DNA from: Microbacterium sp. NIBRBAC000506063
Lineage (GTDB): Bacteria > Actinomycetota > Actinomycetes > Actinomycetales > Microbacteriaceae
Direction of reading: 5' to 3'
DNA length: 64,000 nt
Assembly: GCF_017968845.1 (NCBI RefSeq)
Contig: NZ_CP072876.1
Coordinates: 1,922,001 to 1,986,000 of the forward strand
Shown: one piece after another, positions 11,383 to 20,257 of the stretch
How the letters are laid out: each line of letters opens with the position of its first letter
Numbering within the stretch: position 1 is the stretch's first letter
Made by a program: the position numbers and the translations under genes
Notes under the pieces: model-generated
What the model was told of the DNA's origin: nothing
Seen by the model: the letters and a program-made list of their open reading frames with translations, nothing else
Databases searched by the model: none

Positions 11383-12324
11383 GTGCCTGCATCCGTCATC
11401 TCCGCCCAGGGCCTCGTGAAGTCCTACAAGATCAAGGGGAAGCCCGACTTCCTCGCCGTCGACGGCCTCGACTTCGAGGTCGCCCCCGGAGAGTCGTTCG
11501 GTCTTCTCGGTCCCAACGGGGCGGGAAAGTCCACGACGATGAAGATGATCGGCGCGGTCTCGACGCGCACCGCGGGCGACCTGAGCATCCTCGGGCTCGA
11601 CCCGGATCAGTACGGGCCCGAGATCCGTTCGCGGCTGGGCGTCGTCCCGCAGCAGGACAACCTCGACGGCGAGCTCAACGCGCGCGAGAATCTCTTCATC
11701 TACGGTCGCTATTTCGGCCTGCCCGCCAAGGTCTGCCATGAGAAGGCCGACGAGCTGCTCGCCTTCGCCCAGCTGGAGGAGAAGGCCAAGAGCAAGGTCG
11801 ACGCGCTCTCGGGAGGCATGAAACGGCGTCTCACGATCGCCCGCGGGCTCATGAACGATCCGCGCATCCTGCTGCTCGACGAGCCGACGACGGGTCTCGA
11901 CCCGCAGGCGCGCCACGTGCTGTGGGACCGCCTCTTCCGCCTCAAGGAGCGCGGCACGACCCTCGTGCTGACGACGCACTACATGGACGAGGCCGAGCAG
12001 CTGTGCGACCGGCTCATCGTCGTCGACAAGGGTCGGATCATGGCCGAGGGCACGCCGTCCTCGCTCATCCGCGAGTACTCCAGCCGCGAGGTGCTCGAGG
12101 TGCGCTTCGGCTCCGACCGCAACGAGCAGACCGCGGGTCAGCTGCAGGGCATCGGCGACCGCATCGAGGTGCTGCCCGACCGCATCCTCATCTACGCGCA
12201 CGACGGCGAGGCCGCGCTCGAGAGGGTGACGGCGGCGGGGCTGCACCCGCGGACGTCGCTCGTGCGCCGCTCCTCGCTGGAAGACGTGTTCCTGCGCCTG
12301 ACCGGAAGGTCGCTGATCGAATGA
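11383..12324 (+). CDS. ABC exporter ATP-binding protein, DrrA/NodI type
   Basis: A 313-residue ATPase with Walker A GPNGAGKSTTM, Q-loop VPQQDNLDGEL, signature ALSGGMKRRLTIARGLM, Walker B ILLLDEPTTGLD and switch His in LTTHYMDEAEQL. The pattern is that of drug, lipid or lipo-oligosaccharide exporters (DrrA/NodI). A C-terminal domain follows from about residue 225. GTG 11383 is six bases after a -10 box TAGGAT (11371-11376), so probably leaderless. Its stop overlaps the first permease start (ATGA), and a second permease follows, making a three-gene transporter operon. Substrate unknown. Confidence 0.9.
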   Translation: MPASVISAQGLVKSYKIKGKPDFLAVDGLDFEVAPGESFGLLGPNGAGKSTTMKMIGAVSTRTAGDLSILGLDPDQYGPEIRSRLGVVPQQDNLDGELNARENLFIYGRYFGLPAKVCHEKADELLAFAQLEEKAKSKVDALSGGMKRRLTIARGLMNDPRILLLDEPTTGLDPQARHVLWDRLFRLKERGTTLVLTTHYMDEAEQLCDRLIVVDKGRIMAEGTPSSLIREYSSREVLEVRFGSDRNEQTAGQLQGIGDRIEVLPDRILIYAHDGEAALERVTAAGLHPRTSLVRRSSLEDVFLRLTGRSLIE

Positions 12325-13232
12325 CCCTTCCGACGGTTGGTGAGCCCACCGAACCACAGGGCCCGGAGGGAGAGTCGGGTCCCGCGGAGCGCCCGCACCC
12401 GTCGCTCGACGAGCTGCGCGCGGAGGCGATGGCCTGGGGGCGCAAGCCTCGTGCGCGAGGCAGCTGGTACGTGACCGAGCACATGGTGCGCGCGATGCGC
12501 GCCTACGGCTGGACGATCATCGTCGGCGCCCTCGGGCAGCCGGTCGTCTATCTGCTGGGGCTCGTGGTGGGCCTGGCCGCACTCATCGACGCGCCGATCG
12601 TCAGCAATGGCGTGGAGGTCTCCTATCTGGTCTTCGTCGCGCCGGCGCTGCTGATGTCGGCGACGATCTCGGTGGCGTCCGAGGAGTTCACCTATCCGGT
12701 CATGGCCGGCTTCAAGTGGCGTCGCTACTTCTTCGGCTTCAGCGCTTCCTCGCTCTCGCCGGGACAGATCGCCACCGGCGTCGTCTTCGGCGCCACCGCG
12801 CGCATGGCGGTCGTGTCGGTGGCCTACGTCGGCCTGCTCTATCTCTTCGGGGCGATCCCGAACGTCGCCTGGGGGTGGCTGTCGGTCTTCGTGGGGATCC
12901 TGGCCGGTCTCGCCTTCGGCGTGCCGCTCATGGCCTACGCCGCCTCCATCGAAGACGACAAGGGGCAGTTCGCGCTCGTGCAGAGGTTCGTCTTCATGCC
13001 GATGTTCCTGTTCTCCGGCACGTTCTACCCGCTCGCTGTCCTGCCGATCTGGCTGCAGTGGATCGGCTGGATCTCGCCGCTGTGGCACGCCGCGGAGCTC
13101 GGCCGCGCCCTCACCTACGACCATGTCGTCGCGCCGTGGATGATCGCCGTGCACCTGGGGTATCTGATCCTGTTGATCATCGTCGGATACGTCATCGGAC
13201 GCCGCCTGTTCCAGAGGAGGCTGGCGAAGTGA
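12321..13232 (+). CDS. ABC-2 type exporter permease (NodJ/DrrB-like), first subunit
   Basis: A 303-residue membrane protein with about six hydrophobic segments and a hydrophilic Pro/Glu-rich head of ~45 residues. The block FVFMPMFLFSGTFYPLAVLP and the following ISPLWHAAELGR are characteristic of ABC-2 permeases of the NodJ/DrrB family. Coupled at both ends: ATGA overlap with the ATPase and GTGA overlap with the second permease. With two different permeases the transporter is presumably a heterodimer. Confidence 0.88.
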   Translation: MTLPTVGEPTEPQGPEGESGPAERPHPSLDELRAEAMAWGRKPRARGSWYVTEHMVRAMRAYGWTIIVGALGQPVVYLLGLVVGLAALIDAPIVSNGVEVSYLVFVAPALLMSATISVASEEFTYPVMAGFKWRRYFFGFSASSLSPGQIATGVVFGATARMAVVSVAYVGLLYLFGAIPNVAWGWLSVFVGILAGLAFGVPLMAYAASIEDDKGQFALVQRFVFMPMFLFSGTFYPLAVLPIWLQWIGWISPLWHAAELGRALTYDHVVAPWMIAVHLGYLILLIIVGYVIGRRLFQRRLAK

Positions 13233-14062
13233 CCCTTCAGCACGCACCGCTGCCGACGACCGGTACCCGTCGCACCGGCGGAGTCCGCTCGCTCTGGGCG
13301 GGCAATCCCGGCGCCGTCGTGCAGCGGGGCTTCATCGCCGCACGCTCATCGAGCTGGGTGGTCATCCTCTCCGGCTTCTTCGAGCCGGTGTTCTACCTGC
13401 TCTCGATGGGGATCGGCCTGAGCGCGCTCATCGGCGACGTCGAGACCTCCACCGGGCTCGAGGTGTCGTACGCCGCCTTCATCGCGCCGGCACTCCTGGC
13501 CGTCTCGGCGATGAACGGCGCGATCTACGACTCCACCTGGAACGTCTTCTTCAAGCTCAACTACGGCAAGCTCTACGAGGGGATGCTGGCGACCTCGCTC
13601 GGGTCCCTCGACGTCGCCCTGGGCGAGATCCTCTACGCCCTCATGCGCGGGCTCCTGTACGCGTCGGGCTTCATGATCATCATGCAGTTCGCCGGGCTCA
13701 ACCTCTCCTGGACGGCGCTGCTCGCCCTCCCGGCGGTGCTGCTCATCGGCTTCGGCTTCGCCAGTGTCGGCATGGCGATCACGAGCTACATGAAGGCCTT
13801 CCAGCACATGGACTGGATCAACTTCGTGCTGCTGCCGATGTTCCTGTTCTCGGCGACGCTGTACCCGATCACGGTGTACCCCGAGTTCGTGCAGTGGATC
13901 GTGAAGGCGCTGCCGCTGTGGCACGGTGTCGAGCTCATCCGCGGGCTCACCACGGGCGTGCTGCACACCGGCATGATCTGGCATGTCCTGTACTACGTGG
14001 TCATGATCGCGGTCGGCCTGGTCTTCACGACCAAGAGGCTGCGGGCGCTGTTCCTGGACTGA
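13229..14062 (+). CDS. ABC-2 type exporter permease (NodJ/DrrB-like), second subunit
   Basis: A 277-residue paralogue of the preceding permease. Shared blocks are SGFFEPVFYLLSMGIGL near the N-terminus and VLLPMFLFSATLYPITVYP followed by ALPLWHGVELIRGLT in the C-terminal half. About six transmembrane segments. GTG start overlaps the upstream stop by 4 bases. The next gene is convergent, with only 9 bases between stops and no obvious terminator. Confidence 0.88.
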   Translation: MTLQHAPLPTTGTRRTGGVRSLWAGNPGAVVQRGFIAARSSSWVVILSGFFEPVFYLLSMGIGLSALIGDVETSTGLEVSYAAFIAPALLAVSAMNGAIYDSTWNVFFKLNYGKLYEGMLATSLGSLDVALGEILYALMRGLLYASGFMIIMQFAGLNLSWTALLALPAVLLIGFGFASVGMAITSYMKAFQHMDWINFVLLPMFLFSATLYPITVYPEFVQWIVKALPLWHGVELIRGLTTGVLHTGMIWHVLYYVVMIAVGLVFTTKRLRALFLD

Positions 14063-14071
14063 CGCCGCGGT

Positions 14072-16002
14072 TCACGCCAACAGCTGGTGCCGGGCGAGGT
14101 CGCGATACAGCGGCGTCGATTCGATGAGCTCGGCGTGCGTGCCCTGCCCGACCACGCGGCCGGCCTCGAGCACCACGATGAGGTCGCTGTCGACGACGGT
14201 GGAGAGCCGGTGGGCGATCACCACGAGCGTGCGGCCGGTGGCGACGGCGTCGATCGCCTCCCGCATCCGCTGCTCGTTGACGCCGTCGAGGGAGGAGGTC
14301 GACTCGTCCAGAAGCAGGATCGGCGCCTCGGTGAGCAGTGCGCGGGCGATGGCGAGGCGCTGACGCTCACCGCCGGAGAGCATCACGCCGTCCTCGCCGA
14401 CGGGTACATCGAGACCGAGCGGGCTGCGTTCGAGCACGTCGCCCAGGTTCACCGCGCGCAGCACGCGCTCGCAGTCGGCGTCGGATGCCGTGGGGGAGGC
14501 GAGCCGCAGATTGTCGGCGAGGGTGCCGGCGAGGGTGGGGGCGTCCTGCTCGACGTAGCCGAACTGCGCGCGCAGCTGCGCGCGCGGATACGTGCGGATG
14601 TCGTGGCCGTCCAGGCGGATCGACCCGCCCGTCGGATCGTAGAAGCGCTCGATGAGGGAGAGGATCGTGCTCTTGCCGGCGCCGCTCGGGCCGACGAGTG
14701 CGACGCGGGCGCCGCGCGGCACGGCGAAGGAGACCCCGCGCAGGACCTCGCGGTCCGCGGGGCGAGAGACCCTTCGGCCGGCTCAGGAACCGGATGTGGA
14801 AGCAACGAGGTCGACTCGGTACCGTCCCGCTCGAGGTGCGCGTCGACGAGCAGCGAGTGCGCCTCCGAGGCTGCGGCCTCCCGGGCGGCGATGACCGCGT
14901 CCGGGTACCGGAAGCGGACGTCGTGGAAGGAGAGGGCTGCGGCATCCGATGTCGGCTCTTCGACAGGGAGCGCGGCGGCGATCGCGGCGTCGTCTGCGTC
15001 TTCGTCGGGGAGCTCGAGCACCTCCTGGATGCGGCCGAGCGCGCCGAGCGCCTGGTTGATCGAGGTGATCGCGCCGAAGGTCGAGGCCAGCGGCATGATC
15101 AGCATGAACAGGAACATCACGAACACCACGAGCGAGGCGACCGTGATCGCCCCTGAGGCCACGCGCAGACCGCCGACGCCCAGCACGACCAGCAGCGACA
15201 GTTGCATCGCGACGCCCGCGATCGGCACGACGAGCGCGGAGATCTTCGCGATGCGCACGCCGATGCCGTAGGCCTCCTTCGCCCGCTCGGTGACGGCGTC
15301 CTTCTCACGCTCGGTGGCCCCCGAGGCGCGGATGGTGCGGATCGAGCCCACCGCGCGCTCGACGCCGGAGGCGAGCTCGCCGACCTTCTCCTGCTGGGCG
15401 GCGGAGGCGGTGCGGATGCGGGAGCTCAGCAGCACCACGACCACGACCGAGCCGCCGATCACCACGACGATGAGCAGCAGCAGTATCGGGTCGATGATGA
15501 GCATCGCCACGAGGGATCCGAGGAAGAGGAGGACGTTGCCGACGGCGTCCGCGAGCCCTTGGGTCAGCACGGCGTAGAGGAGCGTCGTGTCGGTGCCGAC
15601 GCGCGAGACGAGGTCGCCGGTGCGGCGCGCGTCGAACTCGCGGACGGGCAGGTGCAGGATGCGGGCGATGAGCTGTCGGCGGCTGGAGTAGACGACGGCG
15701 GTGCCGGTGCGCTGGAGGAGATAGTGCTGATAGCCGGAGATCACCGAAGAGATCACGACCAGTGCGACGAGCACCCATACGAGGACGCCGAGCACGCCGC
15801 CGTCCTGCACGTCCTGGATGAGCTGTCCGACCAGCAGCGGCTGTGCGAGCGAGGCGATCGCGCCGGCGACGCTGAGGATCGCCACGACGATCAGCGTGCG
15901 CTTGTGCTCGAAGAGATAGGGGAGGAGCTGGCGGAACGTGGCGCGGGGACCGTCGTGTTCAGCGCCTCGTCCGCGGCGGCGTGTGATCGCCGTGCGCGAC
16001 AT
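14072..16002 (-). CDS. ABC half-exporter with fused membrane and ATPase domains, with one apparent sequencing frameshift
   Basis: A 643-residue exporter (after correction). Residues ~25-330 carry the six-helix transmembrane domain (RQLLPYLFEHKRTLIVVAIL; FDARRTGDLVSRVGTDTTLL), followed by the ATPase: Walker A GPSGAGKSTILSLIERFYDP, Q-loop GYVEQDAPTLAG, signature MLSGGERQRLAIARALL, Walker B ILLLDESTSSLD, switch His in VIAHRLSTV. The G run 14759-14762 lacks one base. Between the first ATPase strand and Walker A an unusual stretch of ~45 residues includes LLPHPVPEPAEGS, which looks like translated repeat DNA. The gene lies 24 bases after the small HTH gene and probably shares its promoter. Likely a drug or lipid exporter; substrate unknown. 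Confidence 0.88.
14769..14792. repeat. Short dispersed-repeat-like sequence inside the ABC exporter gene
   Basis: The plus strand reads CCCTTCGGCCGGCTCAGGA here, close to the CCTTCGACAGGCTCAGG sequence that, from general knowledge, is scattered in many high-GC genomes. In frame it encodes the PEPAEG stretch that interrupts the ATPase domain. Only one copy is present in this window. Confidence 0.4.
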
Positions 16003-16026: not shown

Positions 16027-16233
16027 TCAACTATGGCCGTATTTCCTATGCGCGGCCTGCTTGCTCACGCCCAGGGCGCTCGCGATCGCCTGCCAGGAGT
16101 ACCCGGCCAGACGGGCACGGCGCACCTGCACCTCTTCGGCGCGGGCGATCTCCTGGCGGAGGTCGCCGAGTCGCCGGATCTCGGCGAGCGGTTCGCGTTC
16201 CGGATCGAGGGCGGATGCGGTGCGCAGGGTCAT
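16027..16233 (-). CDS. Small helix-turn-helix protein, likely autoregulator of the ABC exporter
   Basis: A 68-residue protein. The first half is charged and helical (RRLGDLRQEIARAEEVQVRR); the C-terminal half is a compact HTH, YSWQAIASALGVSKQAAHRK. Similar short HTH proteins are common in actinobacteria; I cannot name a characterised one. The promoter region carries two 18-base palindromes covering the -35 and -10 boxes, so autorepression is likely. The -10 box TAGATT ends six bases before ATG, so the mRNA should be leaderless. The ABC exporter follows after 24 bases on the same strand. Confidence 0.75.
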   Translation of the reverse strand: MTLRTASALDPEREPLAEIRRLGDLRQEIARAEEVQVRRARLAGYSWQAIASALGVSKQAAHRKYGHS

Positions 16234-16280
16234 GGTGTCAATCTACATTGACGCGCGAGTGCTGTCAACCAATATTGACG
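16234..16280 (-). promoter_or_regulatory. Leaderless promoter with tandem palindromic operators
   Basis: On the minus strand TTGACA (16263-16268) and TAGATT (16240-16245) are separated by 17 bases, a near-ideal sigma-A promoter, and the start codon follows the -10 box by six bases. Two 18-base sites of form TGTCAAT/C...ATTGACG lie at 16236-16253 and 16263-16280, 27 bases apart centre to centre, one on the -10 and one on the -35. A dimeric repressor binding both would block polymerase. Confidence 0.85.
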
Positions 16281-16750: not shown

Positions 16751-17233
16751 TCAGCGTGCGGTGCCGCGCAGGTCGCGGACGACGATCGCGGTGCGCAGCG
16801 CGGCATCCGCCGCCTCCGCGCCCTTGTCCTCGGTCGAACCGGGAAGCCCCGCCCGGTCCAGACCCTGCTGCTCGTCGTCCAGGGTCAGCACGCCGAAGCC
16901 GACGGGCTTGCCGGCGTCGAGCGAGACGCGCGTGAGGCCATCGGTGGTCGCCGCCGACACGTACTCGAAGTGGGGCGTGCCACCGCGGATGATGACACCG
17001 AGCGCGACCACGGCATCCGCTCCGCCGGCGAAGGCGGCCTGCGCGGCCACCGCGAGCTCGAAGGAACCCGGAACGCGCACGAGGCGGTGCGCGGCACCGG
17101 CGGCGTCGAGCACGCGCTGCGCGCCGGCGATGAGGCCATCGGTGATCGTGTCGTGCCAGGTGCCGGCGATGACGACGACGTTCACGCCGGCACCGTCGAC
17201 CGCCTCGCGTTCCGGGGCTCCTGCTCCGCTCAC
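16751..17233 (-). CDS. ribH: 6,7-dimethyl-8-ribityllumazine synthase
   Basis: A 160-residue lumazine synthase condensing the pyrimidinedione from RibD with dihydroxybutanone phosphate from RibBA. Family marks are VRVPGSFELAVAAQ, VVALGVIIRGGTPHFEYVS with the catalytic histidine, and PVGFGVLTLDDEQQGLDRAG. Last gene of the rib operon; its start overlaps the ribBA stop by 4 bases. It assembles as an icosahedral or pentameric complex in the family. Confidence 0.96.
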   Translation of the reverse strand: MSGAGAPEREAVDGAGVNVVVIAGTWHDTITDGLIAGAQRVLDAAGAAHRLVRVPGSFELAVAAQAAFAGGADAVVALGVIIRGGTPHFEYVSAATTDGLTRVSLDAGKPVGFGVLTLDDEQQGLDRAGLPGSTEDKGAEAADAALRTAIVVRDLRGTAR

Positions 17234-18492
17234 TGGGCGTCCTTTCCGTTCGCGAGAGCCGCCGAGAGCTCGACCTCGCCGATGATGTGACCCATCCGGT
17301 CACGCTTGGTCTCCAGGTACTGGTGGTTGTTGGGTCCGACCCCGACGATGAGCGGCACCTGCTCGACGATGTCGAGCCCGAGTTCGCACAACTGTGCCAC
17401 CTTGTCGGTGTTGTTCGTCATCAGTCGCACCCTGCTGATGCCGAGGTCGGTGAGGATGCCGGCGGCGGCCGCGTAGTCGCGGGCGTCGGCGGGAAGGCCC
17501 AGCGCCAGGTTGGCGTCGACCGTGTCCAGCCCGCCCTCCTGCAGGCTGTAGGCGCGCAGCTTGTTGATGAGGCCGATGCCGCGCCCTTCGTGGCCGCGCA
17601 TGTAGATCACTACGCCGCCCTCCTGCTCGATCGCGGAGAGCGCGGCGTCCAGCTGCGGACCGCACTCGCACTTGAGCGAGCCGAAGGCCTCACCGGTGAG
17701 GCACTCCGAGTGCACTCGGACGAGCGCGGTCTCGCCCAGATCCCCCGAGACGACCGCGATGTGATCGGTTCCGGTCACCCGGTCCTTGTACGCGAGGAAG
17801 CGGAAGGACCCGTGCTCGGTCGGGACGGTGGCATCCGCCCGCAGGCTCACCCGGCGCCGCGCCGCGCGGGACGGACCCTCCGGCTCGTGCTCGTTCAGGT
17901 GGTCGATGAGCTGCTCGATCGTGATGACGGGGACGTTGTCGCGCTTGCCCAGCTCCTTCAGCCGCGGCAGGCGCATCATGCTGCCGTCCTCATCGACGAT
18001 CTCGGCGATCGCGCCGACCGGCTGGAGGCCCGCCAGCCGCATGAGCTCCACGGCCGCCTCGGTGTGGCCGCTGCGCTCGCGCACGCCGCCGTCGACCGCG
18101 CGCAGGGGGAGCACGTGCCCCGGTCGGATCAGGTTCGTCGCCGTCGACTCCGGGTTCGCCAGCACGTTCAGGGTGCGTGCACGATCGGCGGCGCTGATGC
18201 CGGTCGTGATGCCGTCAGCCGCGTCCACGCTCACCGTGTACGCGGTCGAGCGGGCGTCCTCGTTGCGCTCCACCATCGGCGGCAGGTCGAGGTGGTCGGC
18301 GAGGTCTGCCGGCATCGGCGCGCAGATGAAGCCGGACGACCAGCGCACGGTCCACGCGACCCACTCGGGGGTGGCGAGCTCGGCGGAGAGGATCGCATCG
18401 CCCTCGTTCTCGCGGTTCTCGTCGTCGGCGACGATCACCGGCCGGCCGGCACGCAGGGCGTCGAGCGCCTCGGGGATGGTGGCAAGACTCAT
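17230..18492 (-). CDS. ribBA: Bifunctional 3,4-dihydroxy-2-butanone-4-phosphate synthase / GTP cyclohydrolase II
   Basis: A 420-residue fusion. Residues ~1-200 are the DHBP synthase: ADDENRENEGDAI (acidic active-site loop) and RSGHTEAAVELMRLAG. Residues ~205-420 are GTP cyclohydrolase II: zinc cysteines in HSECLTGEAFGSLKCECG, the YMRGHEGRGIGL loop and LMTNNTDKV. It supplies both branches of riboflavin synthesis. Start ATG 18492 overlaps the ribE stop by 4 bases. Confidence 0.96.
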   Translation of the reverse strand: MSLATIPEALDALRAGRPVIVADDENRENEGDAILSAELATPEWVAWTVRWSSGFICAPMPADLADHLDLPPMVERNEDARSTAYTVSVDAADGITTGISAADRARTLNVLANPESTATNLIRPGHVLPLRAVDGGVRERSGHTEAAVELMRLAGLQPVGAIAEIVDEDGSMMRLPRLKELGKRDNVPVITIEQLIDHLNEHEPEGPSRAARRRVSLRADATVPTEHGSFRFLAYKDRVTGTDHIAVVSGDLGETALVRVHSECLTGEAFGSLKCECGPQLDAALSAIEQEGGVVIYMRGHEGRGIGLINKLRAYSLQEGGLDTVDANLALGLPADARDYAAAAGILTDLGISRVRLMTNNTDKVAQLCELGLDIVEQVPLIVGVGPNNHQYLETKRDRMGHIIGEVELSAALANGKDAQ

Positions 18493-19121
18493 CGTGAGTG
18501 TCCTTCCGCAGGTGCCCGGAAGGCGAGCAGACGCTCGACATGCCGGGCGATGATGTCCGTCTCGAGGTTGACGTGGTCGCCGACGGCGCGCGCGCCGAGG
18601 GTCGTCGCGGTGAGCGTCTCGGGGATGAGCGAGACCTCGAACCACGCGGGTCCCGCTGCGGAGGGGGCGCTCACGGCGCTCACCGTCAGCGAGGTGCCGT
18701 CGACCGAGATGGAGCCCTTGTCGACGACGAGGGGAGCGAGTGCCTCAGGCAGGGCGATCCGCAGCACCTGCCACTTGTCGCCGGGGCGCACTTCCAGCAC
18801 CTCGCCGACCCCGTCGACGTGCCCCTGCACGATGTGGCCGCCCAGGCGCGCTCCCACCGGCATCGCCTTCTCGATGTTGACCCGCGAGCCGACCCCGATG
18901 CCGGCGAGCGCGGACACGTCGAGCGTCTGCTTCATGACATCGGCGTCGAAGGTGTCGGAGGTCGAGTCCACCACGGTCAGGCACACGCCGCTCACCGCGA
19001 TCGACTCGCCGTGCACGGCGTCGCCGACCGCGCCCGGAGCGCGCACGGTGAGCCGCCAGCCGTCGCCGGCCGGTGCGATGCGGGTGATCTCCCCGATCTC
19101 GGTGATGATTCCGGTGAACAT
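18489..19121 (-). CDS. ribE: Riboflavin synthase alpha subunit
   Basis: A 210-residue protein with the duplicated lumazine-binding barrels: MFTGIITEIGEI at the N-terminus, GESIAVSGVCLTVV in barrel 1 and KGSISVDGTSLTV in barrel 2. It dismutates two lumazines to riboflavin. The ATG shares a base with the ribD stop, so it is tightly coupled. Confidence 0.96.
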   Translation of the reverse strand: MFTGIITEIGEITRIAPAGDGWRLTVRAPGAVGDAVHGESIAVSGVCLTVVDSTSDTFDADVMKQTLDVSALAGIGVGSRVNIEKAMPVGARLGGHIVQGHVDGVGEVLEVRPGDKWQVLRIALPEALAPLVVDKGSISVDGTSLTVSAVSAPSAAGPAWFEVSLIPETLTATTLGARAVGDHVNLETDIIARHVERLLAFRAPAEGHSR

Positions 19122-20206
19122 CAGTGGGGGCCTCCTTGGGCTGCGGGGTCGTCTTCCCCGGTGGTTGAGTGAGCCCTCGAAGAGGGCGAGTCGACACGCG
19201 GTCGTAGAACCAGCAGAAGGTCGTCACCGAGCGATTCGGCCGACGACACCGTCAGACGCTTCTGCTCGCCGATCGTCGTCACGCCGACGTCTCTGATGGC
19301 GAGCCGGTCGCCGCCCAGGAGCGTCGGCGCCACGTAGACGAGCAGCTCGTCGGCGAGCCCCTCGCGCAGGAACACGCTGGCGATGGTCGGTCCGCCCTCG
19401 ATGAACACGCGCTGCACGCCGCGCTCGCGAAGGTCGGTGAGCAGCCCGTCGAGATCCGCGCCGTCGTGGCGGAGCACGGCCTGCGGATGCCGCAGCACCG
19501 CCGCATCCGCGGGGATCTCGCGGGTGCCGAGCACCACGGGGACCGGCTGCGACTCGTACAGCGAGCCGTCGTCGCGCCGCGCGGTCAGTGCCGGGTCGTC
19601 GGCGAGCAGTGTTCCGGTACCGACGACGATCGCGTCGGCAGCGGCCCGGCGACGGTGCACGTCGGCGCGTGCCTCGGGGCCGGTGATCCACTGGCTCGTC
19701 CCATCGGATGCCGCAGCACGCCCGTCCAGGCTCTGCGCCCACTTCACGGTGATGTGGGGGCGGCCGAGCCGCTGCACGGTGAGCCAGGAGTCCAGGAGGT
19801 CTTCGGCGGCATCCGTCGCGGCATCCGCTTCGACGTCGACGCCCGCAGCGCGCAGACGCTCGGCTCCGCCGGAGGCGAGCTCGCCGTCGTCGCCGATCGC
19901 GAAGACCACCCGGGCGACGCCGGCGTCGATGAGCGCCTGGCTGCAGGGGCCGGTGCGGCCGGTGTGGTTGCAGGGCTCGAGCGTCACGACCGCGGTCGTG
20001 CCACGTGCGGCATCCGGGTCCAGTTTCGAGAGCGCGTCGACCTCGGCGTGGGCCGTGCCGGCACCCCGGTGCCAACCCTCGGCGAGCACGGCGCCGGAGG
20101 GGGAGAGGATGACCGCGCCGACCTGCGGGTTCAGCCCGCGTGGGCCGCGGCGGGCGAGCGTGAAGGCCCGCGCGAGTGCTGTGCGCTCCGCCTCGGTCAC
20201 TGCCAT
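19121..20206 (-). CDS. ribD: Bifunctional riboflavin deaminase / reductase
   Basis: A 361-residue RibD. Deaminase domain (residues ~1-145): HAEVDAL and PCNHTGRTGPC, the zinc-binding motif. Reductase domain (~150-340): VKWAQSLDGRAAASDGTSQWITG and RVFIEGGPTIASVFL. The last ~25 residues (after LVLRPRV) are not part of the family core; they are encoded by a palindromic repeat at 19160-19198 and by sequence leading to the ribE start. Start ATG 20206 follows the FMN riboswitch and a weak GGA site. Confidence 0.95.
   Translation of the reverse strand: MAVTEAERTALARAFTLARRGPRGLNPQVGAVILSPSGAVLAEGWHRGAGTAHAEVDALSKLDPDAARGTTAVVTLEPCNHTGRTGPCSQALIDAGVARVVFAIGDDGELASGGAERLRAAGVDVEADAATDAAEDLLDSWLTVQRLGRPHITVKWAQSLDGRAAASDGTSQWITGPEARADVHRRRAAADAIVVGTGTLLADDPALTARRDDGSLYESQPVPVVLGTREIPADAAVLRHPQAVLRHDGADLDGLLTDLRERGVQRVFIEGGPTIASVFLREGLADELLVYVAPTLLGGDRLAIRDVGVTTIGEQKRLTVSSAESLGDDLLLVLRPRVDSPSSRAHSTTGEDDPAAQGGPH
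19160..19198. repeat. GGTGGTTGAGT-type palindromic repeat in the 3' end of ribD
   Basis: The plus strand begins GGTGGTTGAGTGAGCCCTC, contains the perfect hairpin GCCCTC-GAA-GAGGGC (19173-19187) and ends GAGTCGACAC. From general knowledge, this resembles a repeat scattered in Microbacteriaceae (GGTGGTTGAGT ... GAGTCGAAACC). Here it is read as coding sequence, extending RibD. Only one copy is in the window. Confidence 0.55.
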
Positions 20207-20257
20207 CCGTCGTCCTTTGAAAATGGCTCCGGGGTTCTCGAGAACGCGCATGCGCGC

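Follow-up and report, generated by a model that had tools for sequence, protein, structure and literature searches.

The question raised by this locus is whether a very small DNA-binding protein controls its own promoter and, with it, a downstream exporter gene. The locus lies within a 64 000-nucleotide stretch of the genome of Microbacterium sp. NIBRBAC000506063 (contig NZ_CP072876.1), here called the window. An initial annotation described it as a compact, self-limiting exporter switch, in which a 68-residue helix–turn–helix (HTH) protein turns off its own leaderless mRNA and the exporter. The layout that it gave is largely borne out (Table 1). The ATG of the HTH gene is at 16233 on the minus strand, six bases past the -10 (16245-16240) and 3 bases past the nearer of two palindromes, and 24 bases past the HTH gene the exporter ORF begins, at 16002. 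The promoter is near ideal, as claimed, with consensus bases at 10 of 12 positions and a 17-base spacer. In a 3 kb scan, 2 promoter-like sites were observed compared with 0.2 expected, the second being the opposite-strand reading of this same promoter. The palindromes do lie over the -10 and the -35, the -10 being in the centre of the proximal one, but each is 16 bases long rather than 18, the outermost T/G pair being mismatched. Read on the minus strand, the distal site is GTCAATATTGGTTGAC (16279-16264) and the proximal site is GTCAATGTAGATTGAC (16252-16237). Perfect 6-base arms are found in the proximal site only, and the sixth base of the half-site is T instead of C in 3 of the 4 half-sites.

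Table 1. Features of the HTH–exporter locus, in window coordinates
Feature	Position	Strand	Basis
68-residue stand-alone HTH gene	16027..16233	-	ORF list; AlphaFold2; hhalign of family
Proximal operator GTCAAT-N4-ATTGAC (candidate; contains -10)	16237..16252	.	Pattern scan; conserved in relatives
Distal operator GTCAAN6TTGAC (candidate); promoter-side half = -35 (TTGAC)	16264..16279	.	Pattern scan; conserved in relatives
-10 hexamer TAGATT, inside proximal operator	16240..16245	-	Promoter scan
-35 hexamer TTGACA, overlaps distal operator; 17-base spacer	16263..16268	-	Promoter scan
MsbA/BmrA-like ABC exporter (transmembrane + ATPase parts)	14072..16002	-	ORFs, Pfam, relatives, PDB relatives

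The reading preferred here, with a probability of roughly 85 %, is that the 68-residue protein is an autorepressor, dimers of which occupy both palindromes and exclude RNA polymerase, and that it represents a stand-alone HTH of the ClpC2 type (discussed below), accompanied by an exporter instead of the Clp_N domain. A dimer would bind each GTCAA-N6-TTGAC palindrome through the C-terminal HTH and, since the -35 lies in the distal site and the -10 in the proximal one, the bound protein would keep RNA polymerase off the promoter. The shut-off would cover a shared transcript for the HTH protein itself and the ABC exporter, and repression could be relieved by a ligand, by the state of the exporter, by proteolysis or by plain dilution. 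A dimer is expected by analogy with residues 4-72 of ClpC2, which are reported to form one (PMC10030653).

Conservation of the sites was determined in the genus. The window protein was used to search 198 genomes, 138 of which gave a match at E 1e-5. Loci were fetched for listed matches with E up to about 1e-10 and for a sample of weaker ones, and sites were sought within 260 bases upstream of the HTH gene in a first set of 110 loci (the window and L007-L115). It is apparent that the pair is widely kept: exactly two perfect sites were found in 97 of these loci. The other 13, which count against autorepression, have one site (9 loci, 4 of them with a second site containing one mismatch), none (L078, L110 and L115) or three (1 locus). 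Spacings in the 97 two-site loci were 27 (13 loci), 28 (57), 29 (25), 31 (1) and 44 (1). The 27-29 seen in 95 of them corresponds to a promoter spacer of 16-18 bases, because it separates the distal TTGAC from the proximal TAnnRT by 16-18 bases; the promoter itself thus sets the distance between the operators. An A at position 8 of the site, which in the proximal copy belongs to the -10, was found in 78 of 98 proximal vs 13 of 98 distal sites.

At the level of whole genomes, 110 carried an HTH match with E of about 1e-10 or lower; these had at least two sites in 92 cases, one in 16 and none in 2. The remaining 88 genomes, a comparison group that includes 28 with weaker HTH matches only, had two sites in 2 cases (G056 and G154), one in 11 and none in 75. 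The 18 HTH-bearing genomes with fewer than two sites and the 13 genomes outside that group with one or two must both be set against autorepression. The 198 genomes together held 235 sites, whereas the reversed control gave 7 forward hits, each in a different genome. Twin sites at a spacing of 25-28 were present family-wide in at least 49 of 299 genomes and at least 24 of 85 genera, counts that are lower bounds because the pattern omits spacing 29; the reversed-control twin pattern gave no hit among the family matches listed. Judged by this conservation, the predicted switch is real. The leaderless part of the original description has to be narrowed: among the 107 site-bearing loci (window and genus), the start codon is 6-8 bases past the -10 in 26, and many of the others have a GGAGG-like sequence ahead of the start. 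A putative leaderless start, as seen in the window, represents one arrangement of two and is not general.

The pattern GTCAAN6TTGAC occurs 3 times in the organism's own 3.04 Mb genome, 2 of these being at the HTH promoter, and the reversed control pattern occurs 0 times. Attribution of the sites to the window protein is drawn from sequence, which leaves some room for the palindromes to be the sites of another regulator, with the HTH gene as a passenger. This is considered highly improbable: sites and HTH gene co-occur across the genus, the own genome holds just one further such site, and the site type shifts with the type of HTH, as described below. The third site (contig 1, 28360-28375, L004; letters GTCAATTGAAATTGAC) was considered as evidence of a wider regulon and dropped. 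It is not inside any stop-free stretch of more than 150 codons, and GTCAATTGAAATTGAC recurs letter for letter in G013, G037, G048 and G138, with a near-copy in other genomes including G154, which lacks an HTH match; it is therefore not counted as a regulon target.

The initial annotation knew of no described regulator of this family, but one with the same twin-operator plan has been published. ClpC2 (Rv2667 and homologues) is a mycobacterial autorepressor and cyclomarin sponge, the operators of which, two copies of CGTCAAC-n5-GTTGACG over the -35 and -10, are reported to be repeated in many species (PMC10030653). Its gene is described as probably leaderless; the operator was bound in EMSA, cyclomarin A derepresses, and the inducer binds the C-terminal domain, which is like the N-terminal domain of ClpC1 (Clp_N) (PMC10030653). 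When 45 stand-alone HTHs were compared, using hhalign, with 6 N-terminal parts of proteins that combine HTH and Clp_N in one ORF, a match of 97.4% (E 1.5e-11, 55 columns) was obtained, so that on family profiles the HTH of ClpC2 is related to the window protein. The GTCAAC/GTTGAC half-site and the twin placement over -35 and -10 are shared as well, and the start codon is 2-3 bases past the proximal site in the 7 ClpC2 homologues examined, compared with 3 in the window.

There are also clear differences. A Pfam scan of the 68-residue protein found no Clp_N domain, which ClpC2 has; the gap between half-sites is N6 (n4) in the window, as in stand-alone relatives that have a site pair, whereas it is N7 (n5) in one-ORF genes of the ClpC2 type; the recognition helix reads QAxH in the window protein and QAxQ in most one-ORF proteins; and the output in the window is an ABC exporter, unlike that of ClpC2. 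Among the 11 one-ORF loci of the phylum set, two perfect N7 sites were found in 7 and perfect N6 sites in 0 within the stretch scanned; N6 pairs belong to stand-alone HTH genes. As judged from sequence, the window protein is related to the N-terminal HTH of ClpC2 but stands alone. The window switch is planned like that of ClpC2; lacking both the Clp_N domain and the n5 spacing, it does not qualify as a ClpC2. What was known already is the twin-operator plan of ClpC2 (PMC10030653); what is new is the stand-alone HTH with N6 sites and an exporter as output. None of the best-ranked matches in the open-licence PMC literature dealt with the stand-alone HTH/exporter pair or with an HTH gene beside a separate Clp_N gene, or held a test of binding, repression or ligand release for the window protein.

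The comparison bears on which part of ClpC2 reads DNA. Its authors assign DNA contact to the C-terminal Clp_N-like domain and report that an R185A/R189A mutant binds less well (PMC10030653). That domain is missing from the window protein, which counts against autorepression by the latter. The crystal constructs are described as covering residues 4-72 and 94-252 (PMC10030653). When a ClpC2 homologue was aligned to PDB sequences, 8ADA ended at ...IGKSMGV (72), 8AD9 started at 94 and the ClpC2 chain 9P2P at 86. The helix TKQAAQKRF (about ClpC2 residues 73-81) matches the recognition helix of the family and falls between the aligned pieces, and 0 of the 37 PDB sequences listed covered it. The same half-site is kept by proteins that have no Clp_N domain, and we therefore infer that the HTH is the likelier operator reader in ClpC2; the fact that site type follows protein type supports this view. 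The C-terminal arginines could act on binding indirectly. These results suggest a correction, whereby the DNA-reading part of ClpC2 would be the helix at about 73-81, outside both crystal constructs (PMC10030653), and they make that part directly testable.

A further association, which likewise supports reading by the HTH, concerns residue 60. In 69 rows with a site pair, chosen to thin out near-copies, the proximal right half was CTGAC for 8 of 8 proteins with S or T at this position (QSxH/QTxH) vs 1 of 61 others (L277). A ninth protein with S, L249, has no site pair and stands outside the 69-row set. A single origin of the 8 S/T proteins was not rejected (p-AU 0.414), and independent origins of the change to GTCAG were accordingly dropped; the association represents one or two events, not eight. 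That it may be one event, that L277 breaks it and that L249 lacks a pair all weigh against autorepression.

Five HTH relatives from Nonomuraea (L170, L176, L181, L192 and L196) have the usual recognition helix and no GTCAA sites, and all share CTGGACTACCTTTAG directly before the start codon. Relatives with the same helix and without sites likewise count against the preferred reading.

The AlphaFold2 model of the 68-residue protein (mean pLDDT 87.1) has a long helix at 15-42 and predicted HTH helices at 47-54 and 58-65. Foldseek with this protein found nothing significant among solved folds (best E 0.68), and the VIA fold comparison gave no match with Z of 5 or more among the matches listed, the best (Z 4.9) being to Fis and other HTH ends. 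This weak likeness to the DNA-binding ends of Fis and NtrC-type proteins would be compatible with an activator or architectural protein instead of a repressor; that alternative has very little probability, given that both sites cover the core promoter and that the relative ClpC2 represses (PMC10030653). The half-site TTGAC is also a -35 sequence, which prompted a comparison with region 4 of sigma-70 and ECF sigma factors as a possible origin. The likeness is weak: the window protein scores below the Pfam gathering score, the best family member gives E 1.5e-6 for Sigma70_r4_2, a match is listed at E up to 1 for 31 of 45 members, and the fold comparisons give E 0.68 or worse with Foldseek and Z up to 4.1 with VIA.

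The best PDB match of the family profile was RelI (Rv2664; 9SDC, E 1.2e-9), a small actinobacterial HTH protein like the window protein, while the N-terminal piece of ClpC2, 8ADA, matched weakly (E 0.28). RelI is the antitoxin of RelS and is related by its authors to the HTH of ClpC2; it binds the toxin, and the authors report no upstream inverted repeats and no evidence of DNA binding (PMC13284704). The window HTH gene differs from RelI, as there reported, in having upstream palindromes (PMC13284704). No RelS-like toxin gene was recognized beside it by ORFs and Pfam, the neighbours being the exporter downstream and, upstream, a 116-aa ORF with no Pfam match above its cut-off.

The gene downstream of the HTH was determined in a combined set of 278 loci, excluding the window, from the genus (129), named (80) and phylum (69) sets, which overlap in species and of which the genus and named sets are dominated by Microbacteriaceae. 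Neighbours were called with a home-made Clp_N profile and by BLAST against the window exporter parts (E 1e-20), and a site pair was allowed up to 4 mismatches summed over both sites. Such a pair was present in 235 of the 278 loci, and two perfect sites in 196. An exporter is next to the HTH gene in 151 loci, 142 of them with a site pair; a Clp_N gene is next in 65 (61 with a pair); Clp_N is in the same ORF in 11 (10 with a pair and 7 with two perfect sites); and the neighbour is other or unrecognized in 51 (22 with a pair). The palindromes are thus retained in nearly all relatives that retain the HTH/exporter pair, and the claim of a self-limiting exporter switch stands up to the comparison that the initial annotation had proposed.

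By set, an exporter is next in 97 of 129 genus, 52 of 80 named and 2 of 69 phylum loci, and a Clp_N gene in 17 of 129, 6 of 80 and 42 of 69, respectively; the same-ORF arrangement accounts for 11 of the 69 phylum loci. In the loci sampled, the exporter version thus occurs chiefly in Microbacteriaceae, and the version with HTH and separate Clp_N in the rest of the phylum. An HTH relative was detected at E 1e-4 in 101 of 296 phylum genomes. All 3 of the Clp_N neighbours put to Pfam scored above the Clp_N cut-off, and in most of the 60 loci displayed the Clp_N gene starts -4 to +5 bases from the HTH stop. Loci of this kind (in Streptomyces, Amycolatopsis, Actinokineospora, Saccharomonospora and others) have the HTH family and the twin N6 sites in common with the window, and differ in the next gene, which is Clp_N rather than an exporter in the Streptomyces/Amycolatopsis type. 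We know of no name for them. No claim is made as to which of Clp_N and exporter came first, because the tree is built on 66 columns and its deep forks are weak.

These arrangements bear on how repression might be relieved. One possibility is pure homeostasis, in which the protein holds its own expression and that of the exporter at a constant low level, with no ligand or partner to lift repression. The predicted fold, one long helix plus HTH in 68 residues, would leave little room for a ligand pocket, and in a profile search of the own genome all Clp_N hits above the cut-off lay at the ClpC locus, though this assembly is rated 76.8% complete. Most phylum loci, on the other hand, pair the HTH with Clp_N, and the Clp_N domain of ClpC2 is reported to be the inducer-binding part (PMC10030653), which makes the family look inducible; homeostasis is accordingly given less than even odds. 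Release or removal of the protein is held in similarly tentative regard: the HTH would be titrated by the exporter or by the N-terminal domain of ClpC, or destroyed by ClpCP, and need for the exporter or overload of ClpC would switch the operon on. By analogy, a ligand on the ClpC1-NTD-like domain derepresses ClpC2 (PMC10030653), and the occurrence elsewhere of HTH and Clp_N as separate neighbouring genes suggests a contact between two chains.

Autorepression by the window protein, if correct, ties an unannotated small-protein/exporter pair, common in the sampled Microbacterium genomes, to ClpC2, an autorepressor that senses an anti-ClpC1 peptide, and the list of loci assembled here provides cases in which DNA reading and the Clp_N domain would sit in separate proteins. 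A wider proposal, offered as speculation and regarded as unlikely, is that an HTH of about 70 residues with twin promoter palindromes forms a portable autorepressor cassette of the Actinomycetota, the output and sensor of which are exchanged (one-ORF Clp_N, separate Clp_N or exporter). If so, operator recognition in ClpC2 would fall to the HTH instead of the C-terminal domain, and the exporter of Microbacteriaceae would play the efflux role corresponding to the ClpC2 sponge, expelling peptides of the type that attack ClpC1.

Several loci depart from these main arrangements. A second HTH paralogue, mostly of about 84 aa and with a Clp_N gene next to it, was observed in L115, L118, L119, L122, L123, L126-L131, L133 and L135, its promoter being covered by GCAAC-type sites (AGCAAC-N4-GTTGAC and variants); the Clp_N version in Microbacterium mostly uses this operator dialect of its own, AGCAAC-N4-GTTGAC. 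Since 6 of the 13 genomes with the second paralogue also carry an HTH locus of the exporter type, GCAAC- and GTCAA-type sites may be insulated dialects. QSxH recognition helices and a neighbouring Clp_N gene are seen in L120, L121, L124, L125, L276 and L281, most of which have extended TGTCAGTCTGG-type sites over the promoter. In L112 and L113 the same HTH family and GTCAA sites precede a serine-hydrolase-like gene, the protein fragment from L113 matching PF00144 (Beta-lactamase) just under the cut-off. L186 (uncultured Arthrobacter), counted among the exporter loci, shows only 43% identity and may encode an exporter of another kind.

In the window, the reading frame of the exporter is broken, which also counts against autorepression with an exporter output. 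The transmembrane part is in ORF 14449-16002 and the ATPase part in ORF 14072-14722, in different frames, and the shift in this assembly falls between about 14760 and 14830. For the exporter of the relative L146, residues 1-391 and residues 400-628 align with the window in two different frames, and the gene is a single ORF of 628-634 aa in 7 of 7 fully covered relatives examined. PDB relatives of the intact L146 exporter are ABCB-type exporters, the bacterial ones including BmrA and MsbA. Window positions 14755-14835, between the two parts, encode VPEPAEGS-like residues with a change of frame relative to relatives; one copy was found in the own genome. The own ClpC gene (L287, contig 1, about 1583991) also changes frame, after the Clp_N repeats, which suggests indel errors in the assembly. 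Given this and the rated completeness of 76.8%, an assembly error is a fair guess for the exporter break; a real lesion is possible.

Upstream of the HTH gene (window 16751-20251, minus strand) lie riboflavin genes that we take to be ribH, ribBA, ribE and ribD. As ribH was near the HTH in only 4 of the 109 loci searched, many of which are too short to reach it, these genes are not treated as a general partner. Tail-to-tail with the exporter, at 11922-14062 on the plus strand, are genes with the appearance of ABC-2 type permeases. A permease 67-88% identical to the second of these occurs close to the HTH gene in 21 of the 109 loci from relatives; in 20 of the 21 it is upstream and on the opposite strand.
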